From contig JAPHTP010000017.1 of assembly GCA_026196875.1 (NCBI GenBank), positions 1-64,000 on the forward strand: DNA of 64,000 nt, read 5' to 3'. Source of the DNA: Kangiellaceae bacterium (GTDB lineage: Bacteria > Pseudomonadota > Gammaproteobacteria > Enterobacterales > Kangiellaceae). The notes beneath the pieces were generated by a model. It searched no databases. It had not been told where the DNA came from and worked only from the letters and a program-made list of their open reading frames with translations. Both the position numbers and the translations under genes were made by a program. Positions 1 through 39,516 of the stretch are shown piece by piece (position 1 is the first letter of the stretch; every line of letters begins with the position of its first letter).

Positions 1-3000
1 AGCATCAATAATTTGTACACCTTGAAGCTCAGCAATATTTGCCTGAGTTAAGTCGATAGTTGATCTAACGGTTATCGAATTGGGAGTTTGCTCAACGACT
101 TCATACAAATCAGCAGAATCACTTTGCAAATCAAATCTTACAAACCGACCAACCAAACTACTGTTGCTAACTTCGGAATGGTTTATCCAAGGCGTACCTT
201 CTACTTCTATTCGATAAGTTTCAGCAGTTACCGGAACAGTGTTAACGACATTGTGTTTACCAACCGAAACCAGCTCGGTAGCTTGACTTGAGAATGCCCA
301 GTTACTTCTAGAGATGCTCGATAGTTCCGCCCAAACACCATCTTGACTTGATATTTCAGTATATGAAGTCCCCGGTGCTCCTTCATAATTATAACGAGTA
401 CCGTTGTCATCAACTTCGACATTCCCCGGCAGAATCCAAATGTTATTCTCTGCAAAGAATTGGTTGTTAACAGTATCTGAATAGTAAACCGCGACTCTAC
501 CACCCGACCCCGCGGCAATTGGTCTATCTCCATACTCACTTAAGTCAATATTAAACTCTGAGCCGCCTCCAATCGCATTCAGTATGCTGTTATCATCAAG
601 TATTAAAGTTTCGACGTCTACCAAAATACTTCCGCCAGATCCGCCGCCTTCACCACGGGCATTCAATCCAGACCCAATAAAGCTAATGCTGTTGGCACTA
701 AGTTTAATGACACCCCCACCTACTCCACAGCTTTCATCTCCTTTGCCTGAAGAATTGAGCTCTCCTGTACAGTAAGGCGTGATAGGTCCACCACTACCAG
801 CAGCATTTGGTAATTTGTAATCACCATAAGTACAAGAATTGGTGTCTCCTATAATTCCGCTACCAGCATGACAATGTAGATAAGTGTCGGTTGAGAACCC
901 TGGGCCATATCCCTCTGGGTAACCAGCTCCAGCAGCACTTATCGTACTATTTTCACCGCTAACATCACCTGTGATATTAAAAATTAATGGATAGATTACT
1001 TGCTGATCTACATCTGCGCGAGCGGCATTAATTGTCGACCGGGTTAAACTAACATTACCTCCAACAACAATATCCTCGAGGATAGCAAGTTGTAATTGGA
1101 TATAGGTATTCACATCCGTTGAACCGATTATCAGGTCACCTTCAACGACAAGCCTATTTGCCTTAATACTGTTGTTCGTACCATCTATAGTTAAATTCCC
1201 TTTAACTACAAGCGTACCATTTACCGTCACAGTAACGTTGCCATGTATAATAATCGAATCAGCTTCAACATTACCATCGTAGGTAACAGTCTCGTCATCC
1301 CAGACAACAAAGCCGAGCGAAGTCGCCCCTTCAACCGTTAGAGCAACATTTGCGGTTTGGCTTGCAAACTGTACAGACAATGTAGCAGTACCCTGAGCAA
1401 TTGCACTCCAACCAACAGCTGATGGTTGAGCTACAGAGTAGTTATTACTTTCGAACAACAAGTCATAGTAATTAGCATCACTGACATCTACAGTTCTCTC
1501 AGTGCCGTTTACATTTAATGTCGCGGTCACAGTTACAGTGATGTCACCTACAGCATCATTGATGTTGTATATAACTTCAGTTGGCGAAACATTAATTCCC
1601 GTAACCAACGACTCGTCAATATTGCGACTATTTGCATTGTTTGGATCTGAACCAAATTCAATCTCCAAGTCGTCAGCAATACCGTCATTATCCGAATCTT
1701 GTGATAATGGATCAGTGCCGTAGGTATTTACTTCTTCACCATCAGTAATTCCGTCACCATCGCTATCATTGTTGTTAGCATCTGTTCCAAGTTGAATTTC
1801 TTGAGCATTACTCAATCCATCACCATCAGAATCTTCAACACCATCGCTCACACCATTGCCATCACTATCTGAGTTGGCTGCGTCTAAGCCCAACTCAAAT
1901 TCAACCGCATTGGTAACACCATCGCCGTCAAAGTCTCCATCAACTTGAAGCACGCGGAGTGAAATAGTATTAGCCACATCCATTGCGCTTGAGTTATAGA
2001 TACCTTCAAGTCTGATGGTCACTTCAGTTCCATCAGCCAAAGATTGTCCTGTATGGATTGGCGCTACAAAAGTCGTAGTATTGATATCGAATGCCTGCGC
2101 AACATCATCAATAAACAATTGCGCACTTGAAACATTCGCCGTATTGATACCATCACCAATATTAATGCTCAAGCTATTGTTAGTACCTTCAAGTACAAAC
2201 AGTGAAGCTTGCTCCGGAATATTAATGATAGGCGTACAGGCAGCGACACTACGTTGTAATATTTGATCGCCTTGCGCTACACCGATTAATTTTGAATTAG
2301 TCGTGTCGTAGCTATAACAACGATTAAGCGCTAATGGGCTTTCAGGGTAGAAAGTAATTTGAGTGTCTGAGTCAAGTGACACATCACCTGCAACTTCAAC
2401 ATCAGCATCAAATAGTTTGACGATTGCATCCCCAGTTCCATCATCAGTCACAGGCTCATTAACGGTCAGTTTCAATGGTACATTGGTATCATTGTGCAAC
2501 TGGACATAATCTGCAGTGATTATTGCTGGAGGTAACTTAGCGAAGTCTAGCGTGAGTTCCTCACCAACTAGTAGATTCAGCATAGACTCTTCATTATCTA
2601 AGCGAACGATAACTTCTTCTGCTTCAACATCGCTAACATTAAACTCTACCGCACCAGCATTTAGCGGAAGCGTAACAATGGCCACGTCGTTATTAATGAT
2701 TGCGCTTCCATCCACGCTGAGTTCAACATTGAAGTTCGCATCAATCATTTCACCATCGTCAAGAATTTGAGTTGTCGCGTTATCGTAGTAATCAACCATT
2801 TGAAGTTTAACGGTTGCAGTCTCAGTTTGTTCTAGGACTTCCAAGCGACCATTAGCGTCATTGGTTTTTGAAACCTCTCTAAATCTAAAGCCGTATGCAT
2901 CTCCCGCGACAACCTCAACATTAACCACCGACTGCGCCACTGACGCCGTGTTTGGTGTTGCAATATAACGAGTCTCTAATTGCGAAGTCTGTTGCGGATA

Positions 3001-6000
3001 ACTAAAGTTAAATGGATAAACTCCGGCTTTCGAAGTGGCGGCAACTTCAATGTTTGCGACACCATTGACAAAAGTTACTCTCGCAGTTTCACCTATCACA
3101 TCGCCTTCGTTGTTGTACAGAGAACTTACTTGTGCGTTGCTAGCAAAGCCGAAATGGAATTGAGGATCAACAATGCTAATGTCAATTAACTGTTCGCTGT
3201 TAGAGTGGACTAGATTGCCAGCAGCATCCAATAGACGCATCTCTATTTCAAAGACATCCTTTGGTTTTAATTGCTGAATGTTGGCAACCTCAACAACTTG
3301 CGCAAGTCCAGGCGCTATCTCCACAGGGAGAACTGCAGTTTCTACTTGGCCCCAGTTAAGCACTGATGCTTGAAGGTCAAATTGGCCAGCTGGTAAATTT
3401 GCACTCCAATTAAGCAGCGCAAGCCCATCGATATCAGTAGTTACGCTAGCAACAAATGCGTTCTGAGTTTCAGTCTGATATCTGAATGTTACCGTTTGAT
3501 TGGGCACCGCTCTATGGCTACTATCGATTACTTTAACCATATAGTTTGCGCCGATTCCTGACTGAATAATTGACGGATTCAATGAGTCGTCGCCATTATT
3601 CTCAAAGAACACTTCATTAGGTCTTTGAGTTAGATTAATTTCAAACGGTTCACTTGTATCAGTTTGACCAAGTTCATCAGTCAATCGTATTTGATATACA
3701 ACTTTATCGTCTGGTTGTGCTTCACCTGGTAATCGAATAGAACGATTAAATTGATCGTAGCACCAGCCATTACAAATTGGGGTAACTGAAGGCGTGCTAT
3801 GGGTAATATCAATCAGCTCCGTTTTTAACTTGGTAACTACACCATCATCAGAAGCATCCAGATTTGATAAGCGTAGAGAAAAACGATCGTTATAAATACC
3901 GAATTCTGGCACTTCAATAACCATCAACGAGGCATCTGGTGCAAGATCTCTCTTTACCGTCACTGGAACAGATTGGGTGATAGACTGTTGGCGATCATCC
4001 GTCACGGTAATATTCAAATTCTCTACAAGATCGCTGACCGGCCTTTCCGCTCGAAGATCTTTGATTGAGTTATTGTATACATACTGCTTGCCACTCACTT
4101 GACGTTTATTAGGCTTACCCTGCCATTCAACATCGATACTGCTCAGGGCAACGTCATCAGAAACAGTTAACTCAACATCTAGTTGGCTTTGCTCCAATAT
4201 TTCCGCCGGAACGTTAACAGCAACTATCTGCGGTAAATCATCAGCAGATACCGTTATTTGCATCGACGCGGTTGACGTTAAGCCCGCTCTATCAGTTACT
4301 TCTACTAAATAATCATAGACATCGCCTACTTGAGGATCTGCTTCTTGATAAACTAATTCTGAAGCCGCAAACGCAGCCGAAACTAGGGTACCGTTTCTTC
4401 TAAGAAGCGCCTGCTCGACACCGCTATGTTCATCAATCAGAGTTGCAACTATGTTAAATGGACGTCCACCAGGAACAATATTGGTAGCGATGGTAGCACC
4501 GTCAATAGCTAGACTTGCAGTTGGGCTACGCACGTCTGTTAGTCGCACAATTTGTACCGACTGACTCTCGGCAAAGTTGCCATATACATCAACCGCACGG
4601 GCTTTAATGTACTTTCCTGAATCCGCTACACCGAAGTTTTTAGATACTTCATATATTGGACCATAATGCTTTCTTAATAACTCATAAGGTCCATCAGCTT
4701 CAGGTGCGGCATAGAATTCTACTTGCTGAATTGGTTGACTTGAGCCAATAATTTCCGCACTGATTTGCAACGGTTTTGGCAGATAACTCTCTGTTTCAAG
4801 ATTAATGGTTACGGAGAAATCATTCACCGGTAGATCATCACTTTGGAGAATCGCACGACGCGTTGCTGAAGTAATTTTTCTACCCCATTTATCAATAATA
4901 TTCGCACTCACATCAAAAGCTTGACCATTACGTAATTCCGCAGGGATCATGATTGCTGAATCAAAGGGAGCGTGTGCGTTTGAAGAAACCAACTTGCCGT
5001 TAATATAATAATCAACCGCAGCGACACCTTCGGCATCAACAATGCTCAACTCTATTAATTCACCATGTTGGTAAATAGTGCCTGCAGCAGGAAGTTGCAA
5101 TGAACTAGAGGCAGCTTGAGAGTTAAACGGTAATTCTAGAATACTAGAACCAGCACTTCCCTCCGCAACCAATAGCTTATTAAAGTCTGCATCAATATCT
5201 TGAATGTTGTTACTGAAATCATATAAACCAGTAGTAGCTATCCAATCGATTAAATCCATCGAATGTAGCTGTCCATTAGCGACTAGCCAAATGGTACCTT
5301 GCCGCAACTCAAGCGCTGTAATGTTATTACTGAAGGCAAAGCTAACATCTTCGTTAGTGGTTAGATTATAACGGTGCAGATCTGAAGCAACGCTATATAC
5401 CAGGAAGTCAATGCTTGCTTGTAACGCGTCAATACCCGAGGCGCTGTTAAACAAGTTTTGTATAGCCACTTCGTACTCATCAATCGGTAATGATAAGTGT
5501 TCAATTAACAACACACTGCCGCTTGAAGTTGCCACAAAAACTTTTTCGTCCGCGGAGGTTAATTGCAGAATGTCATCGCCCTGCTCAACTACAAGTTCAT
5601 CTTTAACCCGACCATCATGATCGGTGATGTAAAGCGTATCACCGGCGGCAGCTATTATGCGTGTTGGGGTAACCGTAAACTGTGTGAAGTTTTGTCCACT
5701 TAAGATCACTTGCGATTGAGTTAGATTATTCGATGTATATCTCTCAATCTGCCCAAACTCTTGGTTAAGTAGATAGTAACTTTCACCAACAACCGCTACT
5801 TGGCCTATTGAAGCAGTGTATTGAGGTTGCGGCACCACATTTTCACTGATGATGCCTCGCTCATTTGGCTGCAACGCAACTGCGCCATAATGCTGAGCTG
5901 CTGACATAGCGACACCACGGCTAATGCTGGTAGACGAGTGAATACCTCTGGCACGCTTGGACGCATAGATCTCTTGAATTTGATTGGAGCCCTGATTTAT

Positions 6001-27000: not shown

Positions 27001-30000
27001 AATATTTCTAACAGGAAGACCGTAGTCAAGCCTTACGTAACTTCCGGAGTTATCCATCACACCATAAGAAACGTAGAGTTCTAGTTGGTTAACTTTGACG
27101 TTATCAAAAGCTCTAAATTCGGCGGTAAAATTACTTGACTCTACTGCGCCAAAACCCACCACCGGATTAACTAGTATGGATTCGGGTGCGTCTCTATCTT
27201 GAATGCCGATAACGGTGATTTCGTCAGTGCCAATTGCATTATCTGCGTCAGTTATTCTTACAGTTAGAATAAATTCTTCGTCTGCATTAATCAGCGAGGT
27301 TGGTAGCTCCAAAGTCCAACCAAACTTCTTAACGAAATCGCTCTCCTTACGAGCGAAATCATCGGCGATATTCTCGCCATAGTTTTCTTCAAACTCATCA
27401 TAGATTTCATTTAATGCATTTTCGAAACGAGTTTCTGCCATCTGATTGGCAGCTTCAAAATTGTAACTGGCATTAACTTGGAGGCCATTAACCAAAAATT
27501 CGACATTTTCAAATGCTAACGCTGCATCATCAGCCGCGACCGCTGCCACTTTAAATCTGAATGAACCAGCCAAAATTTCATCATTATCAACTGGGGTAGT
27601 AAAGCGAATTCCTGGAGTGACATTATCAACTGGGTGAACAACAATCTCTTTAATTGTTGCTTGGTCAGTGTTATCAACCAGTTCAATTTGATAGAAAGTC
27701 GCTTCGACTTGGTCAAATATAAACGAGGCTTCTTCCAACTTACTGCTAATTTGTTCTTCTGGGCATTGCGTATTATACATTGCACCATAGACTTCAATTT
27801 TTTCTCCATCTGAGGTAAGACGATAGATGGTAAAAGTACTGATCTCTGCATCATCAGATAACAATGCATCTATCTCGATAGTACTTCCAGTTCGCACCCA
27901 GAACTCACCGTAGTTAAGTCTTTCCGGCGAAGTGATTTCACGTCTTGACTTAAATCGCTTGATATCAAGGACTGGTGCTAAATTATTATCGACCGGTAGT
28001 TCTACTGATTTAGTTGTGGAATTGTTGCTTCGATCAGTCGCAACAATATCAAATCTGACTCTTCCGCCCGCTCTAAGCGTGGTCGGTAAATCAAATTTAA
28101 ACTCATAGTCGTTTTTCTTGTAGTAACCGCCAATTTCGTTAACTAGATTGCCTTCATAGAATAACTGCAGCTTCTCTAGCCCTTCACTATTATCACTAGC
28201 CTCAAAGTTAAATGTCAGCCTTTGCCCGCTAACCACATAGTTGTCCGAGCGCGGAGTAATGATCTCGAGTTCAGGCGGCTCTATGTCATTGGTTAAAATC
28301 TGTGTCGCAAGTGGCAACAGCTTCATCTCTAACCTTTCATGGGCTAACCGATCAGCTGCGATACCATAGGTGTAGAGCTTATCGATATTGTGCTGAGCGA
28401 CAAGTGTTGTAAACCAATTAACATCTACTTCAAGTTTCTTGTTGCCACCACCATTATATCTCTTTTGTTTTCGATTACTGATAAATGCTTGACGAGTTTC
28501 ACCGTTGATCTGCTCTTCTAGTACATAGGTTAATTTATAAGGCTCGCCTTCAATTCTGACTTGCTTTTGGCCAGATTCAAAACCGCTTACCGATGTTTGG
28601 TTGAGGAAATCAACTCTTACCTTCTTAATAAAATTCGGGTGACTCCCGCTTCCGGTAAACTCAGGTTCAATTTCCAATACGACTATTTCGCCATCAAAAT
28701 ATTCGTCTAACTGGATCCCTGTGTCACCACTAACGGTGGTTTCAAAAATTAAGTCCGTACATAGGTCATTTCCGTAAGCTCTAATTTTAAAATGGGTTTT
28801 AACGGTATCTCCAAAATTGAAACGCAAGACTGATCGTGAATCATTTTTGTCCGGGAAGAGTCTTAACTTTCCATTGCTAAAACTTAACTGAGGAGAATCA
28901 TCAAGCAATATACTCCCGTTTGCCGCTCCCATTTCTGGATAGTTCCACTCGGAATAAAGACTTCTTGTGAGCGCGAATTGATCCGAAGGATCAACCCAGG
29001 CAAGAGGATTTCTTGCGGCCTGGTTATTGCGCAAGTCGAAAGAGGTGTAAAAAGCGGTGAAATCTAATGGCAAATCCCCGGTAACCAAGTCATCTTTAAT
29101 AGAGAATATTTGATAGGCTAAGCCGCCTTTGATCAGATCATTCTCAGGATAGAGTTCGCTAATTTCTACAGTCGCTTGTTTGTCCTTCACAATTTTAACA
29201 TTGTGTGAATGAATCGTACGATTTCCAGAAGTATCATAGGCTTCAACAACTAATGTGAAGTACTTACCTTCTGCAGGGATTTCTCCGAAGTCTTCAAGGT
29301 TAATAGAAACTTTTGGGCTAGTAACCCTACCATCTATTAAGATACTTTCCGCGTCTACTTTGTCTTCTTGATGCAACAGGACATCATCAGGATCACTTTT
29401 CAAGTATAAGCTAACGGACGATAATTCGATATTGTCTCTAACATCGAATATTACATCGACTTCTTGCCTTTCCACTTCTTCGGCTAGCGGCGATTGGAAG
29501 TTCACAACAGGCTTTTCCGTGTCGTGCAAAATAGTTAGTTTAACCGCGTTAGAATCTGTTTCGTTTACACCTTTATCTTTAGCACGAATAAATAGGTCAA
29601 ATGTTTGGCCCGCTTGCCCGGTTAAATCTTTTGACAGAATAACTTTGCCTTCAATATCGCTATAGAAGCGTTCTGCGACAATAGTCTCTCCGATGGTAAT
29701 GGGATTAGGAATGGTGACAGTTTCAACGCGATCATCGCGTACCAACATTTCCCAATCGAGAACAGTTTCTGTTCCATTCTGCCATTTCATTACCACATCG
29801 AATTCATCAATGTAAATGTTGTCGCTGGATTCAGCGCTAAATGAAATTCGTTTGCCAGGAAGTAACTCAAGATCTTCTTCCGGCGTCAACATTACTATCT
29901 GAGGCGGTTCTTGATCATCAAGGATCTCAATCTCTAATAACTGAGTTGCCTCCAATCCAGAATCATCAACTGCAGTAACACCGATCTCAATAGCGCCATT

Positions 30001-33000
30001 GGCTGGCTTACTAGGTACTCTAAAACTATGAGTCAAATATTCCGCGTTTGCATTTGCTGCCTGAGCCTCTGTACCCGAGAAGTACTTACTGTCAATTTCT
30101 CCACTAACCGTATTTCTAATAAACATAGAAACACTGTTTAACTTCGAGTCATCACTGGCCGAAGCTACCAGGGTAAAGCTCTCGCCTTCAATTAACTTGG
30201 TGCCATTGGCAGGAGCTCTAATATCAACTACTGGTGGCTTTTCGCTTTCAACTTCAAATTCCCATATGGTCGTTGCTTGTCTATTGTTGACATCAACAAC
30301 GGTTATATTAAATTCAATACTAGTTGCATCTTCAGGGATCGTATAATCAAACGAGTGAGTGTATTGTTTTCCTTCGGGTTTGAGGTCAAGTAAAGTGTCT
30401 TGCTTAATATCAGTGACGAGCAAAGCGCTTAAACCACTGTTGTCTTTTGCAGCAACTTTAAATACATATGTTCTTTGTTGGTAAAGAATACTGCCCAGGG
30501 TAGGCGAAGTGATATTTCCGATCGGATCCTGATCGTCCAATTTGATCGAAGTAGTCTGGTCAACTGCATCCGACTGCTGCGCCTGACTGTCAGAGACCCT
30601 AACCGAAGCCGTTAAGGATTGCTCTTGATTTAAAATATCAAAGTTGGCCAGATCTATTTCAAACTGGACATTTTGAATTTTACCGACCACTAATCCATTA
30701 GCGCTAGTTCTGGTTTCAGTATGAATTGGAGTCGCCGCACCATTAAGGAAATATTCAACGGTGATCTCTTCAATGCCTTTGTCGTCTTCAGCAGTTACAT
30801 TTAACTTAACAACATCTTTGTTAAAATAGTTTGATTGTAAAAATGAGACCGATTTAACGACTGGAATGTCGTCATTGATAACGCCAATGATTCTATCTTC
30901 TTTACTGTAATTGCCGGCTTCATCATAAACGGTCACTGAAATTGGGTAACTATCGTAAGCTACGTCAGGCAAATCTAAAAACTCTGGGATCTGAACCAAT
31001 AGCAATGCGGAGTACGCATTGATTGCGCCTGGTACGGATTGTAGTCTGAAGTCATCGCCTGATACTTTATCGAGTGGATCACCTGTCAGTACATAGCGTG
31101 GTCCTTCTTTACGCACACCGGTAATTTCAGCGCTGGTTGCCCCCACATTGTCATAGCCAGCTATCTTAACGATGGTTTCGCTCAGCTCTACCACCTCGCT
31201 GATATTATTTTCGCCCGAGACATTGCTGACTTCAGGCGAAACAATATTTAGAACCGGCCGCTCTTCATCATTACCTAAAGTGACATTAACCGTTTGGCTT
31301 TTCGAACTTTGATTTTTGCTGTCAGTGGCAATCGCATAAATTAACAACGCTTGCTCTTGAACGTTATTTGATTGAGTTTCATAAACAACAGAATATGGCG
31401 AGCGGTAATCGCTTCCAATCAGCCTATCATTGACATAAAAGTCGACTTTTTCGACGCTTAAGTCATCACTTGCATCAGCTCTGATTTCAATCGGTAATCC
31501 ACCGACCCAACTTGAACCTTCGATCGGATTAGTGATCCCGATACTTGGTGCTTGATCGGCTTTAACTGGAATTCGTACAGGTTCTGATTGAGAAACAACT
31601 TTGTGAAAATCGGTGACACGGGTGTAAAGCTCTAAGGTTTCACCGAGATGCTCTTCGATAATCGGTAAGTCAAAATGAACGGTTGCCGAACCATAAAAGA
31701 AACTACCATTACCAATCTCTTCTAAGTTCTTATGATTAATGGTTTGTACTAGTGCACCATTAACGAATAATGAGACGTCTGTGCCCGCGGCTAGCGTATC
31801 ATCAGAAATAGTCGCCGATACTCTTAAAGTTTGACCAACTGTCGCATTGGAACCAGCTGTTGGACTATCAACTTTACTGGTTGGCGGTTGATTCTTAAGA
31901 ATTCTGATCAGTTTGGTCGGGGCATTTTCTTGAGCGCCGGCAAAATGTACGATGGCACTAATGGCCGCTGAGGTTTCATCAAGTGACGACGATTTGGTTT
32001 TACCGCTGTATTTCCAAACTTCGTACAAATACTCAACAGTCTCACCATTTGATTGTAAGACCTCTCGAACTTCAAATCCTTTAAATAGCGATTGGCCTTC
32101 TTTTACCCCGTCCCAGAAATATTCGACCCGGGTGATCCCGGATTTATCTTCGAGTTGTTCAGGTTCGGAGACATCGCCAAGGTTATAAGAAACCGAATAA
32201 ACTATAGGACTATCTTCGACAAAACGCTGGTTATCAACCGGTAATTCAAAGGTGTAGTCGGGGAAAACTGGCGTTTCATCATTGGCGACTTTAACAATAA
32301 CTTCTTCACTTAAATTGGTTTGTCCCGCGGTATCTTGTGCGATCGCAGTGAATTTAAGTGTGGTACCAACCATTATCTCCGTGATCGGTAGTTGGAGTTC
32401 AAACGGTGCAGATTTTATGCTACCCAAACTGGTGACATCATTAAAAAACTTAACACTAGCTACGCCAACATCATCGCTAGGATGAGCGATGAGTTTGATC
32501 ACTTGTCCAGGTACAGCTTTGCTCGGAACCTCTAACTCTATCTCAGGGATCGCATCATTGGCCGTAATTGGAAGCTGCATAGAGATAGCAGGCGTATTAG
32601 TCAAATACACCTGAAGATTAATCGGGGTCGAATCATTAATTACGGCACTCGAAGAGAGTGCAGCCTCGCTATCAAGGCTTAAAATACTTTGTGCAATTTC
32701 AGGAATTCTGTAAGTAATGCTGTGCAGATTTCCGATTTGAGTTTTGGAACCATCGTCAAAAACACCTAAAACTTCAGGCAGGGGTATATGTTGGTTTAGA
32801 CGAGGAAGTTGAAAAGCTACATCTGTAGAGTAACCTTCCATTTCAAGGCTTACCAAAGTCTTGCTAAAATTAACTTCGACCGGGATACTTATTGTATCCA
32901 CACCAGGATAAGCTACCTCGATAAAGACTTGTTCGTCACCGGTTTCCTGAATTGGAAATACAATACCTGAACTGGTTACTCTTACATATTCAGTATTGGT

Positions 33001-33888
33001 TGACGTAAAACTCACGCCTGTGCCGGCCCCCGGAAGCGGCGTGGGCCCTCTAAACTCATAATCAACCGTCGGAATTACAGCTACTTTTTCTAATAGGTTG
33101 CTGAAAACAATATTCGACGGATTCACAGACAAGCCAAGGACTGCTTCAGATATATTATCGCCAGTGAAAGAGATTTTGGAGATAGAACTTTGGTTTCCTG
33201 ATGCATCTACAACGTATGCATCAACCAGGACCACTGCGTCGCGCGCAACAGCATCACTGCTTAATAATTGACTGACCGGAATACTAGCCTTAAATGATGT
33301 CTGCCCTTCTAGCGTCGGGTAAACAAACTCAGTAGACTCAGATTTAGCAAATGCCATTTCACTTGCTTTCTCAACAACACCGCCGACACTTCTAAGCTGA
33401 GAGGCACGGATCCCAACGACTTTGTATCCAATGTATCGGATATCAACATCGTCTTCAGCGTTAAATTCTGCGACTAAAAACTGCTTTTCGCCGCTGTTTT
33501 CAATGGCAACACCATCAAGTTCGATACTTGGGTTGTTATTATCAGAGGTAAAGGATTCACTATGTGCGATGACGGTTCCATCATTGAAACTCAGGTTAAC
33601 GCTAGGGCTAAAACGTGTCGCTGATACATCGGTGACTACAAATTCACAACCGTTATTAGATGCGGCACTGGGAAGCTGGTCGGCGGAAGACAACACTTGC
33701 GTGCCATCTGCGGCGAGATACTCTACTTTAGTGAGTTGCTGACAGTCATCAACACTGATGGTATACGAAACTCGGGGAGTATCGTCATCCAGTTTTTGAT
33801 TGATTCGTATATCAACTGCACCGAGACCATTTGAAAAAAGCGCAGAAAAGAATAACGCCGAAGCGCCTAAAAAACCCTTAACATTCAC
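1..33888 (-). CDS. giant multidomain Ig / LVIVD-propeller / TIG surface protein (3' end outside window)
   Basis: One open frame crosses the whole left half of the window; its codons sit on plus-strand triplets 1-3, 4-6 and so on, and the frame at base 1 is the frame of the start. I checked the first 1.8 kb codon by codon and read the rest as continuous sensible protein without a stop. The only usable start is a GTG at 33888: an in-frame TGA lies about 30 bases upstream and AAGGG sits 10 bases before the GTG. Residues 1-24 form a Sec signal peptide (VNVKG, hydrophobic core, SNGLGA cleavage region). More than 11,290 residues follow: Ig-like repeats, about seven propeller/Big_5/TIG super-repeats, more Ig and propeller blocks, TSP3 repeats, then a Gly-rich section. 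I see no RTX nonapeptides and no anchor, but the C-terminus is missing. Likely an exported giant adhesin or scaffold; function unknown. Confidence 0.9.
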   Translation of the reverse strand, partial: MNVKGFLGASALFFSALFSNGLGAVDIRINQKLDDDTPRVSYTISVDDCQQLTKVEYLAADGTQVLSSADQLPSAASNNGCEFVVTDVSATRFSPSVNLSFNDGTVIAHSESFTSDNNNPSIELDGVAIENSGEKQFLVAEFNAEDDVDIRYIGYKVVGIRASQLRSVGGVVEKASEMAFAKSESTEFVYPTLEGQTSFKASIPVSQLLSSDAVARDAVVLVDAYVVDASGNQSSISKISFTGDNISEAVLGLSVNPSNIVFSNLLEKVAVIPTVDYEFRGPTPLPGAGTGVSFTSTNTEYVRVTSSGIVFPIQETGDEQVFIEVAYPGVDTISIPVEVNFSKTLVSLEMEGYSTDVAFQLPRLNQHIPLPEVLGVFDDGSKTQIGNLHSITYRIPEIAQSILSLDSEAALSSSAVINDSTPINLQVYLTNTPAISMQLPITANDAIPEIELEVPSKAVPGQVIKLIAHPSDDVGVASVKFFNDVTSLGSIKSAPFELQLPITEIMVGTTLKFTAIAQDTAGQTNLSEEVIVKVANDETPVFPDYTFELPVDNQRFVEDSPIVYSVSYNLGDVSEPEQLEDKSGITRVEYFWDGVKEGQSLFKGFEVREVLQSNGETVEYLYEVWKYSGKTKSSSLDETSAAISAIVHFAGAQENAPTKLIRILKNQPPTSKVDSPTAGSNATVGQTLRVSATISDDTLAAGTDVSLFVNGALVQTINHKNLEEIGNGSFFYGSATVHFDLPIIEEHLGETLELYTRVTDFHKVVSQSEPVRIPVKADQAPSIGITNPIEGSSWVGGLPIEIRADASDDLSVEKVDFYVNDRLIGSDYRSPYSVVYETQSNNVQEQALLIYAIATDSKNQSSKSQTVNVTLGNDEERPVLNIVSPEVSNVSGENNISEVVELSETIVKIAGYDNVGATSAEITGVRKEGPRYVLTGDPLDKVSGDDFRLQSVPGAINAYSALLLVQIPEFLDLPDVAYDSYPISVTVYDEAGNYSKEDRIIGVINDDIPVVKSVSFLQSNYFNKDVVKLNVTAEDDKGIEEITVEYFLNGAATPIHTETRTSANGLVVGKIQNVQFEIDLANFDILNQEQSLTASVRVSDSQAQQSDAVDQTTSIKLDDQDPIGNITSPTLGSILYQQRTYVFKVAAKDNSGLSALLVTDIKQDTLLDLKPEGKQYTHSFDYTIPEDATSIEFNITVVDVNNRQATTIWEFEVESEKPPVVDIRAPANGTKLIEGESFTLVASASDDSKLNSVSMFIRNTVSGEIDSKYFSGTEAQAANANAEYLTHSFRVPSKPANGAIEIGVTAVDDSGLEATQLLEIEILDDQEPPQIVMLTPEEDLELLPGKRISFSAESSDNIYIDEFDVVMKWQNGTETVLDWEMLVRDDRVETVTIPNPITIGETIVAERFYSDIEGKVILSKDLTGQAGQTFDLFIRAKDKGVNETDSNAVKLTILHDTEKPVVNFQSPLAEEVERQEVDVIFDVRDNIELSSVSLYLKSDPDDVLLHQEDKVDAESILIDGRVTSPKVSINLEDFGEIPAEGKYFTLVVEAYDTSGNRTIHSHNVKIVKDKQATVEISELYPENDLIKGGLAYQIFSIKDDLVTGDLPLDFTAFYTSFDLRNNQAARNPLAWVDPSDQFALTRSLYSEWNYPEMGAANGSILLDDSPQLSFSNGKLRLFPDKNDSRSVLRFNFGDTVKTHFKIRAYGNDLCTDLIFETTVSGDTGIQLDEYFDGEIVVLEIEPEFTGSGSHPNFIKKVRVDFLNQTSVSGFESGQKQVRIEGEPYKLTYVLEEQINGETRQAFISNRKQKRYNGGGNKKLEVDVNWFTTLVAQHNIDKLYTYGIAADRLAHERLEMKLLPLATQILTNDIEPPELEIITPRSDNYVVSGQRLTFNFEASDNSEGLEKLQLFYEGNLVNEIGGYYKKNDYEFKFDLPTTLRAGGRVRFDIVATDRSNNSTTKSVELPVDNNLAPVLDIKRFKSRREITSPERLNYGEFWVRTGSTIEIDALLSDDAEISTFTIYRLTSDGEKIEVYGAMYNTQCPEEQISSKLEEASFIFDQVEATFYQIELVDNTDQATIKEIVVHPVDNVTPGIRFTTPVDNDEILAGSFRFKVAAVAADDAALAFENVEFLVNGLQVNASYNFEAANQMAETRFENALNEIYDEFEENYGENIADDFARKESDFVKKFGWTLELPTSLINADEEFILTVRITDADNAIGTDEITVIGIQDRDAPESILVNPVVGFGAVESSNFTAEFRAFDNVKVNQLELYVSYGVMDNSGSYVRLDYGLPVRNITSIPARDFNVVDTENIDTPLYQQLINVPKYSDLIDMFAGTSLDGEETFDVWLRVVSRDAANGEGSHEQSFPINIDERPVIDIVEPANGESVVESTIMAVQVQAFDDVGIQSVRLIATHGSQSVEIANQRLTAAPYTFAINVPQFDLDNAANNIINISVEAIDTYGATHGELDKHTATESINLTIKQDEAPVVAIGLPVNNSEKTEGEKVLVQVNAIDDVGIENVVLSVNGLISGNKSYSDNRAPYEFLIDIPYGQAGTDVLLSATATEVRLSGEPREVSTLSDTRLIILEDLEAPTITILKPEDENTVVVEKRVLPYAIDVTDNVSVHKVTAILSVQDRVVSSMNLLAPPYTSVFTLGTIEDYYEGDASSINELALQFTVEASDGVGNLSRTSVPVLMKRNSPPEVKNLQVLDRKGNYLGDVSEITEGREFVVNVIASDVEVGVDRIKLYRAINPSSDEDYELIGEDAAVPFEFHTESGHRVGETLSFKAIAIDQDGYESDLSTALDLEIVKDLPPEAKIVKPNSDESVIIDGQQLEIFVEAKDDLGPEGIDRVVFYVNNTPVQTAFESYTEVAGVYAQETIYRAVVLPPEGVDGFVLQATVFDVLGQSTQTQVVRVGRIDDTVKPVLSVLNPLEQSILTTGETITPAVSIEDIGSESDRQVIQVWTREYQDALGNWITLSQREIELFRDDVNSGARGLPQSDPDNHYYIYWADFSDGNILRRGDGINERVKVVTSVNTPNHTAEQITIHEVGLPLAESRFLLPKDLEGEEPLVQERILETTKEIFYTAVEQYQSETKDGALVAAWSTVAPSKAELKTSSFASYADLGDIDQVPWTGVFLADAVDETESTVEGERLIYSSVLNGAAEVFKGTITEIHADDAFIMAGKSGQIGCVRDCDVVEDYAKFVQEEIAKFSETGKFYPENEEGELIIFNTVNADENFGIPYTKVGRVDLPYKDVYGLDRKDNLALVANGYGGVQVIDISDLSSPYHVGYIKPNGFARDVKVIGHFAFIAASYEGLVIADLREPSLPIIAKLDTSGVANRLQVVGDLVYLTNMSGDSELALLDVINVADPYTPQLQRSIDLKTNRPDHVTDGAYDLSIVGNLALVTTLTSDQEDKPAQSILEIVDLNNTNQGLEDYTVPAVLNAATSEDVPGARGVIAARGKIQIAGVDKGIQSVDLPALTILSHSPYNDERDVNTDQSLIKVELSAVLPPQTQLENYFEVLEGDPQIGELVTSNFEINFATRNSLPHYRIIELTANTEFDFKAATEYFVKVKRGLNPLTGYALKNDYVFGFTTSAVEGGLIPEFFSVTPDQGDINGGTEIVVRGTNFGETPALELGNQKLHVTRVEEATAEDPYQKIYATTVPNYAGPASVKVTNDQGLSDTALGVFTYIDDLRLSFVTPGVVRVNQNGEGEKVEIIGYGFNTEVELSVYQSGKPETAVSFTADEKLDGSRPLSLYSSERMTLLVPDFGESYRGFVDFEVTDPRGRKAVLPRALFYGLLRTGGAVETEAPLSKIKIEEVNSGKDTYEKDHSKLPPGAIVDFAVDPQSNLVYVLGKGILSSFNQPENMVEFDQAKTLTPAGWITLVGYDLENLDQADPKRGVGYGNLPFDLVPQKLYLSDQKLYVAAKGHHYPFINTDYEDQSLLLVFDKEDRDPDSQGSDDRSMKNAVPMPFNHPIKFMKGVGNLLVLANEYDGIAIVDIGNAESPSVIKTINTATVNGTDWSIRLHDLEVQNDRLVAVINTTPADARKEVFSRVEFDLTKPNLPQLSGHASTNETDVIGSTRLAQIEEGVLEIIDNTNSSYPRNLGSYDSNGFVVAPKLNGENSPVVGLDSSDSVVAMHHSYAFKDECQNYLPFYDVSDPRLIQLIDVVRIRACHGESMGNSTPPGAGEEYDLLQDNFHRKTLITDDGVAINSIYYSRHRSTAPVSELSFVDFLTLDLVSSNPAHLESGVATDIQVELKFNRDITIPGGETESAFLAKYLSLLEDSGSDQLSSVDHTAEIDSVDRSIIRINPSQALAANTNYQIQLTDERTSRRSIGLVNKTINFKTASGSGAKIEIGTVSPRVISTLGGQFSVEVSNASNPNFDLSGNALAIVSSQQLAGTTVEYTLEAGVNLAGPATLNVTDDRGFSAQKIGALLITEPLRVDGISPSKGSINGGTVVEIKGAGFHQRSETLAIYFDDIPVASHKFDVVDPETIILTTPKGKLGFVDVKIDFGSGKEAVLVDGFEFLQASQSTIRGDGRIYDITLDPTLTYMFAAAGQNVLLYDMNSARLTSGEGNQLDAEDLLQLIDLNNDGIDDRLLASIAMPQGKLAVSVDGYFERFNDRVFITLMAHDEDGNVIPGTSELQIYSFDSADVSNTTLIKSLALPGNMVGRLEVENNRALVALGDAGIGLVDTYLHTKMYLSQQLQLPNGHSALDIEPISSASGTTSLYAVASGVFNLNDNQLIEEDIENSGAVYIVESTTTGGLNVLGSVAVPASRLEVKGNYIFASSGENGVIVIDASSPTKPVVLNRFRNLGHVYDIELSGNTIYAALGTTGVKTIDVTDVFNPVVTAGMSANKDVQFEAIVATEYSAIAAGIDTSYESEDGEIKHVIQLFSDVILKLHSVDPESRVLDKDAIGDIKLSLHFNKSIALWADNYNRFELLNESGQTVPFDLTIENNDAIFKVHPNSLSVGQKLTAVARAGIKNVKPFDNGTHVVLYELAKDQIIEFTYRGADYYKFDIVDVVPRRLKVNQSQLITVSAFGVPTDKSLSQIYVGDQAAEIQSVTQSTANGSVSVVEVMVPSISQPGIYDVTIQRNYAGVTETAVLRGGVVVDADVKISSVEPKWGPVSGGFKITVKGEGFEPGNSVLHGMNVRIGSMPVLSTKILSSTEMQIIAPAGYPGLHPVEVANRYGDKATLAKESGVGYGIKLLSSTSPSLVFPSDVYVDQEAGTAITSGGYFKDGYTVQLFQNLLFPETTRAATFDIQDPYNTLLVGGESTLPSGDDAERELGDFVLLMNLTAKQELYKTDKGPPLTAEEEEILDTLQNVSSNFGLDSITIQPFTEDNNGVENKRLLVASGNGGIATLNLDEQNGLNYIGNVFEGSGQALNGLIFGNSIFANIAQPNAVKLKDACAHTSVVGDKSKLYSASSIFSDDPVEMPTEQLEGAYSLYRSGDWLYSGGIYTNHQWVPDGTCMLFNQFTADEGRDYDPEIYQDSSPRIDSINLFDPELKRTFDFDDNVLDITSYGDYILVALGSSGVEIFHKENRQRNYRINIDQSVQSAKARAVNLKILGSTLFVAGDSGGVLVYDIADPLQPKLVSAGNTEAVKALDYYKDRLVAAGGKAGLSVLQLPASIVVSSSVQESDTVALDQSVIVRFNEYVDVAAMSDLNAIKVTNETDAAEVSFTLVAQNEVEGSAQEFELQFNKQASSNYLIEITDARNLRGGNLWTPFTRRFTTSASSFAQPQIDSIEGGTYIQGVAKTIVVNGANFDASLQAQIDQYPLNINWVDANRVEIESTTLDLIALENGQHHLKLIQGDLEVDYLGAIVKADDISDAKFEMSRTSGPTRGGVWVTINATKQVILPGTKVLMRSQSGEEIFTEQLNDGTYLKRLFDDVVDLSEFKFRLPGVIDPGLYDVNLIIDGQEYLAGQYSYTLPAGRETDLPNYPPMVMGDSLTQDNHLFIGVKAGAKPTAENRFLMQSGLEIYDTTIWEHPNRLSQLRTEEPVTGLSLVDDILYMANAKDGIAVVDVQDKATPFIINQISVSGYQVNDVDAHYANMILAAAASSDLGDGFVRFFNLADNELSQPAGYSTIVFNQGDLEGQPVKLQWWNQKLYVLFERENQLFLAIFDQFGTQLSYTVQPIDRGLIEGSVNDITDFDLKVQHGSILITSSKELLILEQNQSGEYDTVYWQALENSSAVILSGNGGVYISNSGGLVGLPGNSLVVTGATPENGSEIALDQQIQITFNKLINTDPQALSSAIELSDADGQAIDAESYSLDAENTISGAIVRISFNASTPIQSSQVNIDVNTSLTALSGAALLQPLQLSYQLVGDITPEVYSVNRVIGAQAFNRYFHADGTEQAVIEGINFGTDAAQISISIGELQLDTNQITSIADNRIEFNFPELFLGLESTALPITIERDGVTSTKFGAIIVLPEVNLEELTPVSGPPQGGNYVEIFGSGFTPSTQIYFNSNLANELKVLAAHKIRVKAPSGEFGFADVSAVNPQFPEEISVLSEGYFYAGQETGSVNLSQAEQSPVVSIAKQGQLLYAVTGGGYQVYDVTGKVVSNPTTSTAQLVLIDISDPVNPEVIEKELSGVKYPYHHKDAIAPTGFSSVAIEGNNLFVIGGDKLLHFDISVATSPYLLEEFSNTESIHSITVEDGIIYLSQNTGIRIFTLTDKGLKQLHTIDRLKLGGTAASMLVEGDKLWTAIPSRRKVVAIELASGEYNLVKDQVLRNDAGQRIQIKDILIHNDHLLVSTGSSATVELFGLANEDEIEYLSSLNLSYLIKNGNLEAGEILIQGQTLYVAAGHGDLQLFDISPWFERRYRAQIDLQHYFSVLGAANTMAFASDAVYVGTSFVYNGQGEAIESPISLDESVNQLGGGLNTIVNDLFLVTEQIPEANGNLAKDAAVEIQLNQIVDNEQFEALADQLLEVSLDGAKVAGFVSRETNVEGSRLIFRAANELEVGKRYRVQLASGLRSISGQTLDADYSFNFVVSADNKPEIESVVPEYGSWRGENEITILGSNFNESTRVKIGGVESTTVNFVSENQITAVVPALENSPAENRLVGLSVHNEISFDFKPASYTYVADPRIDAIGTFDTANRQLDPSKQKFLFNANEYLAIEGAGLNSFTSVEINGQPAANVEVVNDRTISMPVPANTIGTLEIALFNEVNEVDKVVNSQLTIEFDVESHLSGINAFARYKDFAAMVKGDQLKLYITNGSSTPSLISDIEFDKTVKSLVMHENYIAVLDSDGDVTLFDYSNPYDLVVSNTIFNVQQRNFDQIRLNRRNFLLFNDSTIYLGNINGAELKEISVAVVDAQIQSATLELLLADQIQVRSLADPELIASSNAIAISNPSKLQKSGFRSLVSSSTQVQLFAVGPIENGATIDDLGSAALINNELHVNGELAVVSTQDNLLIFDLDIDAGQLVARQIAQFNSNHFNPAQVKGLVFEQNLIEWQIGSSYYNSEIPLANITTQAPQAIGDEFQQVSLTVVGDSEVWDQVTVDLIADSSGLVVPGFTQLINDQLSFQNTATAYQLGETYKVELFNQPNQLIDGGEVNFDLPVSLGTYSLFGMQPFGIERLLPANTISGRATNFVLTGSQLDQVESIEVAGATLPSGDFSVNSSGTELTFNLLVNEPGIYSLVANQPGQSEILTAAILVAQALRIDSVMTDNPAGTNLVSDTRGNKISISGAGFEGVLKVHFFEDSPGFEADESNLQSYEFDAGALTFTSPNTVPGRVYKTIIKRDATNETVEATDRLTSVDDTQPFVEDIQTISRANPLVIVLNEAAQASGFSVIKHFKDYSNTADEDVSSRFELEVVNKSITLRLREGQVFDSNSSYSIQINGIADTANNLVVNRSQFAGGVFTSEFVSNDILSPINLGVVRSSDDVAMTPGMLLTRGRSYEFAVDATDNYDDELSYEIRISVNGGISFGPVQKVNSQAFEIAILEDYSNIVVRLTAYDASGNFKSEDFSASVVDPVINASTVYTTPDKVEEKSHSKIHFDITGDADLVTKVDMIVEGKGFHAAYQLADWNSATATIQYLNPKLTDISPRTDVEVTLKINFGYSGYLEVNDSYLLNEDATPPTISIVSPQDGDGVPLDITTDVIIQSFDKFGIEEVAVAINGGDFVALDQINRYQFTPVSTDPVTLQARATDPNNNTGLSQIITLQPFDATLGEPRVEIVNPADGSTFRESQKVNFEILMANVTDATLYMDVGGSETDPRNPAPLAINRADEDPQRFTVQVEIPATDENVVVIARLESGVLNSKKFINVLRDTGIDENLEVRIEPSETVLTGTGIRITADVPSEMVDYSEDSNVEVRDPEASASGTNYPMQQLDKLVSISNEAGQVLVSSELIDLSNHSKVEESRLNKTQFLGAIRESVIDLSNSASLIGKALVVPGDDDLVVALESVEGYQVQQGSNTILDESGVAIGDIFFNGEYLVVEDNQEGLTRIHLIKKNSNGWDAAITHPVQGKIHAVLGNNLLFTYGNLLSSVQINQGQLVPSVGHLFQEEIHQVQSLGATVLVQTASGINLLSLNNLTNALELDAFYAINSLVGSVLHDRYLTIWTDKQLVQYEVLNNLEIVQTNTVELDSEILEYLVDDELLLFKLANAQLGSYWKLSQDLNTLGYLTDDAKQILVGNGRYYFIRDNSIESQALVTDLTGQSLSLAVNNNIHGWTIGGLKSINGLGQETVVVTDTSSNNVVYTFADKSRDTIFVSRGNFVGGDLNVVVTESNGTQHSVAINLIAANASNLVATSPQNNATITQEALVPVNLEYAQDARIENQQITVDGVEVDLASSVNGAIGWLRADPQATQQSLNISVNSNEVSVNQLDLIEANTELGRVTIIHPQNNQQFIEGEWLDVDYRIVDDTSDEFKYTEVALLDFNQNIISLQLVNAEEGKVSIRLSGLVEQDNYTVRVRGYYGDSYRYSQRTVGIRVIPKNERLNIELSGVPYEVMQGSIMIPVAVVNNLPVTGSITIDVTDENGTPIVSGADSVEFSAPNVTKLMVKATANDGVGNQASTTLESRVISPFALASNANQVDFDVALAGVEQSYFADGSELVDHTGQTLKELNGQVTAMTYVNDRLLVAYSGQGLFFLDHKDDFGFLGRYESQQDYVQLVTFENKLLALTALGELELFSIEGNSLQKIEEYFDSNVVQIGLNSQGWVVLTDDELLQFNWALNSSSKLVTGFGFVSFVMESNFVYLLDEAGTIKVLAESGIQSFDLKLQANTLRWLNGKLIALGSEFTYVIDATSPMALTLVGQFEASNGENLGNSLIVNGAIYLPDATDLAINQGSNQIQEIYASKRARGIHSSTSISRGVAMSAAQHYGAVALQPNERGIISENVVPQPQYTASIGQVAVVGESYYLLNQEFGQIERYTSNNLTQSQVILSGQNFTQFTVTPTRIIAAAGDTLYITDHDGRVKDELVVEQGDDILQLTSADEKVFVATSSGSVLLIEHLSLPIDEYEVAIQNLFNSASGIDALQASIDFLVYSVASDLHRYNLTTNEDVSFAFSNNITALELRQGTIWLVANGQLHSMDLIDWIATTGLYDFSNNIQDIDADFNKLLVAEGSAGSSILELPFNSQAASSSLQLPAAGTIYQHGELIELSIVDAEGVAAVDYYINGKLVSSNAHAPFDSAIMIPAELRNGQAFDVSANIIDKWGRKITSATRRAILQSDDLPVNDFSVTINLETESYLPKPLQISAEIIGSSQPIQQVEFYAAPEADGPYELLRKHYGPIYEVSKNFGVADSGKYIKARAVDVYGNFAESQSVQIVRLTDVRSPTASLAIDGATIATNIVPGGRPFNIVATLIDEHSGVEQALLRRNGTLVSAAFAASELVYQEADPQVGDVYDYLVEVTDRAGLTSTASMQITVSADDLPQIVAVNVPAEILEQSQLDVELTVSDDVALSSIDVEWQGKPNKRQVSGKQYVYNNSIKDLRAERPVSDLVENLNITVTDDRQQSITQSVPVTVKRDLAPDASLMVIEVPEFGIYNDRFSLRLSNLDASDDGVVTKLKTELIDITHSTPSVTPICNGWCYDQFNRSIRLPGEAQPDDKVVYQIRLTDELGQTDTSEPFEINLTQRPNEVFFENNGDDSLNPSIIQSGIGANYMVKVIDSSHRAVPNQTVTFRYQTETQNAFVASVTTDIDGLALLNWSANLPAGQFDLQASVLNWGQVETAVLPVEIAPGLAQVVEVANIQQLKPKDVFEIEMRLLDAAGNLVHSNSEQLIDISIVDPQFHFGFASNAQVSSLYNNEGDVIGETARVTFVNGVANIEVAATSKAGVYPFNFSYPQQTSQLETRYIATPNTASVAQSVVNVEVVAGDAYGFRFREVSKTNDANGRLEVLEQTETATVKLQMVDYYDNATTQILDDGEMIDANFNVELSVDGSAIINNDVAIVTLPLNAGAVEFNVSDVEAEEVIVRLDNEESMLNLLVGEELTLDFAKLPPAIITADYVQLHNDTNVPLKLTVNEPVTDDGTGDAIVKLFDADVEVAGDVSLDSDTQITFYPESPLALNRCYSYDTTNSKLIGVAQGDQILQRSVAACTPIINIPEQASLFVLEGTNNSLSINIGDGINTANVSSAQLFIDDVAQAFDINTTTFVAPIHTGQSLADGTEVTIRLEGIYNSSAMDVANTISLRVLQVDGDFDGDGVTNAVEFELGLDAANSDSDGNGVSDGVEDSDGDGLSNAQEIQLGTDANNNDSDGDGITDGEEVNTYGTDPLSQDSDNDGIADDLEIEFGSDPNNANSRNIDESLVTGINVSPTEVIYNINDAVGDITVTVTATLNVNGTERTVDVSDANYYDLLFESNNYSVAQPSAVGWSAIAQGTATLSVQFASQTANVALTVEGATSLGFVVWDDETVTYDGNVEADSIIIHGNVTVTVNGTLVVKGNLTIDGTNNSIKANRLVVEGDLIIGSTDVNTYIQLQLAILEDIVVGGNVSLTRSTINAARADVDQQVIYPLIFNITGDVSGENSTISAAGAGYPEGYGPGFSTDTYLHCHAGSGIIGDTNSCTYGDYKLPNAAGSGGPITPYCTGELNSSGKGDESCGVGGGVIKLSANSISFIGSGLNARGEGGGSGGSILVDVETLILDDNSILNAIGGGSEFNIDLSEYGDRPIAAGSGGRVAVYYSDTVNNQFFAENNIWILPGNVEVDDNGTRYNYEGAPGTSYTEISSQDGVWAELSSISRSNWAFSSQATELVSVGKHNVVNTVPVTAETYRIEVEGTPWINHSEVSNSSLVGRFVRFDLQSDSADLYEVVEQTPNSITVRSTIDLTQANIAELQGVQIIDA
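480..1320 (-). other. solenoid-like and Gly/Cys-rich section of the giant protein
   Basis: After one Ig unit (about 1620-1330) the protein turns into short regular strands rich in V, I, N and G (for example VNGTLVVKGNLTIDG and VVEGDLIIGS, about 1320-970), typical of parallel beta-helix or polymorphic-repeat folds. It then becomes a Gly-rich stretch with several Cys (CHAGSG, CTYGD, CTGEL, SCGVGGG) and GGGSGGSI / AAGSGGRV motifs (about 960-480). I recognise the style from very large exported bacterial proteins but not a named domain. Upstream modules contain very few Cys, so disulphides are plausible here. Confidence 0.5.
1630..1950 (-). repeat. thrombospondin type 3 calcium-binding repeats in the giant protein
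   Basis: Around residues 10,647-10,753 the frame reads as successive Asp-rich loops (DGDFDGDGVTNAVEFELG, DSDGNGVSDG, DSDGDGLSNAQEIQLGTD, DSDGDGITDGEE, DSDNDGIADDLEIEFGSDP). DxDxDG with a following acidic helix is the TSP3 signature known to bind Ca2+. Such stretches usually serve as rigid, calcium-stiffened spacers in exported proteins, which supports an extracytoplasmic location. Confidence 0.85.
1980..10250 (-). other. distal Ig-like and propeller blocks of the giant protein
   Basis: After the regular super-repeats the order becomes looser. About 10250-9000 holds Ig-like units with IxSPQDGxGV and DxFGIEEV signatures. About 8760-7860 and 6760-5130 read as beta-propellers, with blade phrases such as LYITDHDGRV and short VxGxxLY strands. 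About 7840-6800 and 5100-2000 are mostly Ig-like domains. TIG signatures are not evident here, which separates this part from the super-repeat array. Boundaries are estimates by eye. Confidence 0.5.
10250..24430 (-). repeat. about seven propeller-Big_5-TIG super-repeats in the giant protein
   Basis: The fold order beta-propeller, Big_5/SbsA-like Ig, TIG, often TIG again, recurs with a period close to 2 kb. Approximate spans: A 24430-22450, B 22440-20290, C 20290-18270, D 18240-16090, E 16070-14340, F 14320-12310, G 12290-10250. Propeller blades show LVIVD-type phrases such as GGVQVIDISD (A), DGIAIVDIGN (B), TTGVKTIDVTD (C), GGVLVYDIAD (D) and DGIAVVDVQD (E). Big_5 units share a pattern like DxxIxVxFNxxI and end in FxFTTS. 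TIG units share GxxxGGxxVxIxGxxF. Module G departs from the order (Ig and TIG before the Big_5 unit). Sequences have diverged, so this is a fold-level rather than a recent DNA-level repeat. Confidence 0.65.
25080..33810 (-). other. N-terminal Ig-like repeat array of the giant protein
   Basis: About 2,900 residues made of Ig-like beta-sandwich repeats of roughly 95-120 residues. Most units open with a phrase like PVVDIxxPxNGxxxxEG and carry the AxDDxGIxxVxxYxNG signature (clear around 26.7 kb, 28.2 kb, 31.5 kb and 32.5 kb), which fits the bacterial Ig families Big_7 and relatives. There are roughly two dozen units; the exact count needs a profile search. The first about 450 residues match this signature less well and include two Cys close together (CQQL, NGCEF). 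Confidence 0.75.
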
Positions 33889-39411: not shown

Positions 39412-39516
39412 ATTCAACCTCACCTAACTTCTATAAATATTAAACCTGCTATATTGAGTTCCACTCAGACTTTATACCTAAGGCAAACCAATCATTTATT
39501 TCTAATAACAAACCTA

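Follow-up and report, generated by a model that had tools for sequence, protein, structure and literature searches.

The window analysed here, 64,000 nucleotides of a Kangiellaceae bacterium from the start of contig JAPHTP010000017.1 (C163 in the following), opens on the greater part of a single gene, A, whose predicted product of 12,440 residues heads a conserved locus. In this locus, A is followed by two peptidyl-prolyl isomerases (PPIases), B and C, by a protein D of 1,050-2,629 amino acids and by a protein E of 1,136-3,285 amino acids. Together, A-E probably constitute a polymorphic-toxin system, in which A would be a scaffold exported via Sec and folded with B and C, and D would couple A to the variable-ended E for delivery to a neighbouring cell. 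The link of the A locus to toxins is well supported; the scaffold function and the delivery mechanism are the part that we infer.

Gene A and its missing end

Gene A lies on the minus strand of the window (1..33888), where the frame is open from a GTG at 33888 to base 1, as the preliminary description had reported, and comprises 11,296 codons without a stop; these represent residues 1-11,296 of 12,440, the 5' 91% of the gene. In each of the remaining five reading frames, 527-1,347 stops interrupt this stretch and no more than 125 codons stay open in a row, so that a long frame by chance is excluded. Base 1 of the window is also the first base of C163, in a 6.28-Mb genome of 188 contigs, which explains the missing C-terminus noticed earlier. 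The end of the gene was found on contig C11 (29238-32693, minus strand; 1,151 codons up to the stop) by searching the genome with the C-terminal 1,583 residues of the Aliikangiella coralliicola homologue, while a DNA search of the same genome with the first 200 bases of the window gave no other match. Comparison of the contig ends revealed that bases 1..21 of the window (minus strand) overlap the end of C11 exactly and in frame, and therefore the joined gene amounts to 11,296 + 1,151 - 7 = 12,440 codons, beyond the part visible to the preliminary description. The A. coralliicola homologue backs this junction, since the alignment of the C163 piece ends at residue 11,405 of this homologue and that of the C11 piece begins at 11,403; the 21-base overlap would correspond to an assembler k-mer. 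As predicted from these contig-end sequences, joined via one short and homologue-backed overlap, the full product has 12,440 residues and a mass of about 1,347 kDa (about 1.35 MDa). Its residues 1-24 (33817..33888, minus strand) read by eye as a putative Sec signal peptide, with a short basic start, a hydrophobic stretch and small residues near position 24, and relatives start alike; the signal peptide proposed in the preliminary description is plausible to that extent.

Conservation and distribution of gene A

The product of gene A showed 55% identity to that of A. coralliicola over 11,236 aligned residues, and 43% identity to those of Pleionea sediminis and HF-Dia21, in all cases with few gaps. 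In the class-level relative G150, 10,868 residues stand opposite residues 1-10,850 of the window's protein, with 34% identity over 10,602 aligned residues. The net length of the core is thus kept within 0.2% at 34% identity, which argues that something selects for the exact architecture. The 11,236 codons aligned with A. coralliicola differed by 0.37, 0.26 and 0.63 at codon positions 1, 2 and 3, respectively, and across the full blocks of 1,600 codons these values ranged over 0.33-0.45, 0.22-0.34 and 0.61-0.67, an excess at the third position along the whole length. The frame had been called conserved from a single sequence, which offers no basis for the statement, yet the statement proved correct.

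A scan of one genome per species with a 900-residue query revealed 29 loci, the identity in the best-matching segment being 39-69%. The carriers include Colwellia, Cellvibrio, Pseudoteredinibacter, Alkalilimnicola, Ca. Thiodiazotropha, Desulfoluna, Myxococcota, metagenome-assembled genomes (MAGs) named as 'Deltaproteobacteria' and one Blastopirellula MAG, the last possibly a binning error. Whole-genome searches, which took in 28 of the 29 scan loci (L057 shares the genome of L056) together with the window's own genome and G055, placed the core segment in 31 loci of 29 genomes, the window's included. Frames of 10,080-14,645 codons were present in 23 of these 31 loci, the window's own being counted as 11,305 codons. 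Among the eight shorter ones, three take up the entire contig on which they lie, a fourth leaves 60 bases of its contig uncovered, and that of G113 lies within 4 kb of its contig end; the frames of Alkalilimnicola, Colwellia maritima and G120 are short inside longer contigs. Runs of N occur in G105, one of the 23 (3,324 bases at the A end), G474 (129 bases inside E) and L053 (5 bases), and therefore the frame lengths of G105 A (14,342) and of G474 E are not established. The prevalence of A was low and patchy, with 4 of 40 genomes in the family sample, 7 of 369 in the class sample and 2 of 398 in the phylum sample, the window's genome included. Two MAGs carry two giant copies each, namely SM3-B3m (L056/L057; 13,824 and 13,836 codons) and ZodW_Metabat.284 (L054/L058; 11,278 and 11,279 codons).

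That the long frame is an artefact, due to misassembly, a missed frameshift or gene decay, is hardly credible. The window's contig does end inside the frame, and the three short frames within longer contigs point the same way, but colinear frames of 13,032 to 13,873 residues are present in three independent assemblies and one of 12,701 residues in G150, and the excess at the third codon position extends over the whole length. An artefactual or decaying gene was rejected on account of these four complete frames in other assemblies.

Homology to the window's A ends at residue 10,852-10,853 in Pseudoteredinibacter, G107 and Ca. Thiodiazotropha, and at 10,872 in the Sandaracinus MAG. Pseudoteredinibacter isoporae encodes the tail in a distinct frame of 1,793 residues (L074:10449-15836, minus strand) with a signal-peptide-like start of its own, a natural fission at the boundary of core and tail, and G107 likewise has a distinct frame for it, of 2,378 residues; both frames still resemble parts of the glycine-rich tail of the window's protein. 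In other carriers, the C-terminal stretch of A contains RCC1 repeats (Cellvibrio, Sandaracinus) or FG-GAP repeats (Colwellia GAB14E, G474 and Desulfoluna, in the last beside a glycine-rich part). The tails of Aliikangiella and Pleionea are glycine-rich, and no Pfam family was found in those scanned (A. coralliicola and the window's own tail on C11). These lineage-specific ends beyond residue ~10,853 indicate that A consists of a fixed core and an exchangeable end. Selection on a giant product, as put forward in the preliminary description, is supported by about 10,850 colinear residues, by frames of at least 10,080 codons in 23 of the 31 loci and by the third-position excess along the whole length, and more strongly than that description could have supported it, with the qualification that the part after residue ~10,853 is not fixed.

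Gene A heads a conserved locus

The surroundings of A were read in 21 loci, from lists of open reading frames of at least 150 residues in one locus set and at least 120 in the other, with shorter overlapping ones dropped. The end of A was reached in 19 of them, Alkalilimnicola and Colwellia maritima being left out because their frames are broken and the A end is not reached. B was present in 19 of the 19, C in 17, D in 18 and E in 13. The order A-B-C-D-E, on one strand and with no other listed frame between, was found in 13 of the 19 loci: the window's own genome, A. coralliicola, Cellvibrio 79, Colwellia GAB14E, Desulfoluna, Pseudoteredinibacter, Olavius Delta 1, Ca. Thiodiazotropha, G105, G458, G150, G474 and G379. 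In this count a split tail was taken as part of A; the A end of G105 is mostly N, and G458 shows only the A end. Pleionea, HF-Dia21, G112 and G107 have A-D followed by the contig end.

B is a PpiC-type PPIase and C matches Rotamase_2; in the window's genome, A. coralliicola and G458, both start with sequences that look like lipoboxes by eye. The last ~880 residues of D showed 31-34% identity to D of A. coralliicola across 12 other genomes, the window's own D being omitted from this comparison because it crosses the cut between fetched stretches. The window's own D is rich in the Ig-like domains He_PIG and Big_9, and a sequence search of D against the PDB gave one marginal match, a biofilm-associated surface protein.

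Protein E combines a conserved N-terminus with variable ends

The N-terminus of E is conserved over ~920 residues (nine aligned rows, one of them shorter), and gave no Pfam match and no PDB match by sequence. Of 12 relatives compared with the window's own E, 10 lose the match at its residue 916-924, and the exceptions are A. coralliicola and G105. Beyond this point the proteins diverge in content. RHS repeats were present in 7 of the 13 E proteins scanned (Olavius Delta 1, Cellvibrio, Desulfoluna, Pseudoteredinibacter, G150, G474 and G379), those of Desulfoluna and Pseudoteredinibacter being scanned only in part, and two of the seven, Cellvibrio and G379, also carry a pretoxin PT-HINT domain. 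E of G458 contains an alpha/beta hydrolase domain, those of A. coralliicola, the window's genome and G105 contain Big_1 or laminin-G-like domains, and that of Ca. Thiodiazotropha gave no family match. The E ends of A. coralliicola and of the window's genome share, by eye, a D...E-V/A-K pattern that resembles PD-(D/E)xK nucleases. In Ca. Thiodiazotropha (L079, L080), E is followed by four E-like fragments. Two of these retain no more of the conserved part than its final ~200 and ~80 residues, after which the sequence departs in the manner of orphan cassettes, the new ends being putative toxins. G105 has an extra D-like piece and a second E-like frame.

A and E also co-occurred across genomes. 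In the class sample (n = 369, drawn by tool), the A core was found in 7 genomes at E 1e-50 and the E N-terminus in 8 at E 1e-15, and 6 genomes had both (Fisher p 6e-11, and 2e-9 without the window's genome).

Domain architecture of A

From the N-terminus, the putative signal peptide is followed by a diverged array of Ig-like domains (residues ~25-2925; 25114..33816, minus strand, as are all coordinates in this paragraph), assigned by Pfam as Big_7 with one DUF4625 match. A highly conserved region (residues ~2926-3235; 24184..25113) is blank in Pfam, and its model is of mixed alpha/beta type and mostly confident, with predicted local distance difference test (pLDDT) values by block of 46-96. 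Residues ~3236-7765 (10594..24183) consist of a repeated module, LVIVD beta-propeller - Big_5 - TIG - TIG, of which we count seven strongly diverged copies by eye; six TIG, four Big_5 and two LVIVD stretches pass in Pfam by themselves. Ig-like domains and two further propeller-like stretches, the latter seen by eye in the sequence, occupy residues ~7766-10,080 (3649..10593). They are followed by a Big_1-like stretch below the Pfam cut-off, TSP3 repeats and the end of the conserved core at residues ~10,081-10,853 (1330..3648), where homology in four distant relatives ends at 10,852-10,872. The variable glycine-rich tail starts within the window (residues 10,854-11,296; 1..1329, by sequence and homology) and continues on C11, where it has no Pfam family.

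The copies of these domains are barely alike: with six domain profiles built from the same four giants, other copies scored at most 26.5 bits, the profile's own copy scoring 135-474 bits by construction. Residues 2905-3600, which hold the conserved region and the first propeller, were modelled together with Big_5 from 30 aligned sequences (mean pLDDT 86.2, predicted template modelling score (pTM) 0.86). The Foldseek matches listed for this model were largely propellers (lowest E value 8.8e-9, with 781 matches at 0.001 or below), and among them were the 8-bladed design Tako8 (template modelling (TM) score 0.60 by target) and one chain of a beta-barrel assembly machinery (BAM) complex, which we take to be BamB; the TM scores by query were below 0.35 because only part of the model was matched. 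A single-sequence AlphaFold model of the glycine-rich tail was poor (mean pLDDT 44.6) and gave nothing significant in Foldseek; that the tail forms a beta-helix is a guess. The core segment of A had no match by sequence in the PDB, and NCBIfam gave nothing at cut-off for four pieces of A and the window's own E.

This domain content also fits a different reading, in which A acts on its own as a giant adhesin or matrix protein, for surface attachment or biofilm, and the RHS- or toxin-like E is a co-transported passenger or another surface protein. We regard it as unlikely, if worth keeping in sight. Ig-like, TIG and propeller domains, TSP3 repeats and RCC1 or FG-GAP tails are typical of surface adhesins, D itself is largely Ig-like (He_PIG, Big_9), and the TSP3 part of A gave weak partial NCBIfam matches, far below cut-off, to the cohesion protein MtsD and the lipoprotein CglD. 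However, the neighbourhood with D and E is kept across classes, A co-occurs with E, and the aligned relatives show no variation of repeat number in the core, which is unusual for adhesins. A repeat-expanded adhesin in particular was ruled out, as Tandem Repeats Finder (TRF) found no tandem array in the 33,888 bases of gene A and the internal copies are diverged.

Comparison with known systems

Giant bacterial proteins have precedents. A preprint by West-Roberts et al. reportedly treats giant genes of Omnitrophota and other bacteria, and the likeness to A is that these too are very large bacterial genes. The Marinomonas adhesin MpAFP has a mass of 1.5 MDa and ~120 identical repeats of 104 residues. 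It is, like A, a gammaproteobacterial giant of similar mass made mostly of Ig-like domains; size alone is thus not without precedent in Gammaproteobacteria, which qualifies the rarity that the preliminary description claimed for proteins beyond 11,000 residues. In contrast to MpAFP, A has no tandem arrays, and it shows a fixed architecture, propellers, TIG domains, associated PPIases and a toxin locus; its fixed giant core sets it apart from those giant bacterial proteins that are known as repeat-expanded adhesins.

The arrays of near-identical repeats that mark type I secretion system (T1SS) substrates of the repeats-in-toxin (RTX), LapA or MpAFP type were likewise not found in A, and no match to C-terminal RTX repeats came from residues 9,797-11,296 of A, from its end on C11 (0 families) or from the tail of the A. 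coralliicola protein. Tc toxins (TcA/TcB/TcC) combine large secreted proteins with an RHS shell that encloses a variable toxin end; A is several times larger and has other domains, and no Pfam match to the SpvB, TcdB or TcA families was obtained in the pieces of A, D and E scanned. In CdiA/CdiB systems, a very long surface protein bears exchangeable toxin ends, whereas in the A-E locus the toxin end sits on a separate protein, E. Over its first 1,000 residues, A gave Big_7 matches and no others, hence none to the two-partner secretion (TPS) domain, and there was no CdiB-like or barrel partner in the B-E proteins scanned. PAAR and VgrG, which accompany Rhs effectors of the type VI secretion system (T6SS), were absent from the B-E proteins scanned, the genome itself not being searched for a T6SS. 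Assignments to RTX/T1SS, contact-dependent growth inhibition (CDI), T6SS and Tc systems were set aside, as their defining parts were not found in what was scanned.

In the parts of Zhang et al. (2012; PMC3482391) examined, the export routes given for polymorphic toxins are Sec, type V (T5SS), T6SS and type VII (T7SS) secretion, Photorhabdus virulence cassettes (PVC), TcdB/TcaC and PrsW. The A-E locus resembles such toxins in the conserved N-terminus and variable C-terminus of E, in the RHS and pretoxin HINT domains of some genomes and in the orphan-like fragments of Ca. Thiodiazotropha. It differs in that the text examined names no partner of more than 10,000 residues and no paired PPIases, the comparison being one of descriptions; the words 'isomerase' and 'PPIase' are absent from that text. 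The toxin module is already known in kind, and the giant partner and its delivery route are not known from the literature searched. That search covered titles and the starts of abstracts, with preprints and most subscription journals outside it, and among the papers listed none was recognised as describing the A-E locus or its route.

A proposed mechanism for the A-E system

In the toxin-system reading, A would be exported via Sec by its predicted signal peptide, and B and C would aid its folding in the periplasm. Its many Ig-like, TIG and beta-propeller domains, no two identical and strung together in fixed order and length, may then form a long scaffold at the surface or spanning the periplasm, with the exchangeable tail as a putative recognition or anchoring tip. 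D would couple A to E, whose conserved N-terminus of ~920 residues may dock on D or A, so that the exchangeable toxin-like C-terminus (an RHS shell, with a HINT pretoxin in two genomes, and hydrolase- or nuclease-like elsewhere) could reach the neighbouring cell.

Several observations weigh against this reading. In six of the 19 loci the sequence breaks off at a contig edge before E, and C was not found in G055, which has A-B-D and then the contig end, nor in the Sandaracinus MAG, whose contig ends with B as the sole gene recognised after A. Within the class sample, the A core occurs without E in G268, G458 lacks the A core, though the A end stands at a contig edge with B and C, and in G226 (contigs C86 and C167) the E N-terminus is present only in degenerate pieces, one of them interrupted by two stops, with no A core at E 1e-50. 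The E of Colwellia GAB14E is short (1,136 amino acids) and has no recognised toxin or family match, and the window's own E has neither RHS repeats nor a confirmed catalytic toxin domain, its Pfam matches being a sub-cut-off Big_1 and a weak Glyco_hydro2_C5 (E 0.0025). Small open reading frames follow E in several genomes, and the five scanned had no match to an immunity family. Finally, the greatest weakness of the model is the way out of the periplasm, since the A-E proteins contain no recognised outer-membrane translocator or anchor.

The neighbouring cell is taken here to be a rival bacterium. A system aimed instead at eukaryotic hosts or predators seems improbable: RHS and HINT C-termini do occur in anti-eukaryotic toxins as well, and some carriers are host-associated by name (Olavius-associated Delta 1, Ca. 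Thiodiazotropha), but others are named as free-living or sediment bacteria (Pleionea sediminis, Colwellia maritima), and no recognised feature of the locus indicates a eukaryotic target.

With a toxin system directed at neighbouring cells as the preferred reading, A might tentatively be seen as the founder of a separate class of toxin delivery, a suggestion that we hold with slightly less than even confidence. In this class, one polypeptide of ~11,000 residues with its domains in fixed order, folded by dedicated periplasmic PPIases and provided with an exchangeable tip, would serve as a scaffold or molecular ruler on which the exchangeable toxin E is offered to neighbouring cells, with no known secretion-system parts involved. 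The variable toxin-bearing partner makes the function of the giant directly testable in named isolates, such as Aliikangiella coralliicola and Pleionea sediminis.

Surroundings of gene A and other sites

The intergenic region upstream of A (33889..34696) separates it from a divergent major facilitator superfamily (MFS) gene. In the part that forms the A leader, about 25 bases before the GTG, a terminator-like hairpin (33914-33931, minus strand) is followed by a run rich in T and might possibly act in attenuation of gene A; an Rfam scan of the window gave nothing. The G+C content is 41-43% in gene A and 38-41% in the next 20 kb, a mild step.

Further along the window, an apparent small regulatory unit (38530-40919, minus strand) consists of an extracytoplasmic function (ECF) sigma factor gene and, behind it, a gene that matches HEAT weakly and one of the DUF4097 family. 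A VIT-VWA protein of 1,060 residues is encoded at 53032-56214 (minus strand), near genes for a tetratricopeptide repeat (TPR)-sulfotransferase (47739-49352) and a TonB receptor (49442-51820). Elsewhere in the same genome, contig C48 carries a second large frame around 4261-11847 (minus strand), recorded as 4,694 codons and containing many He_PIG domains.
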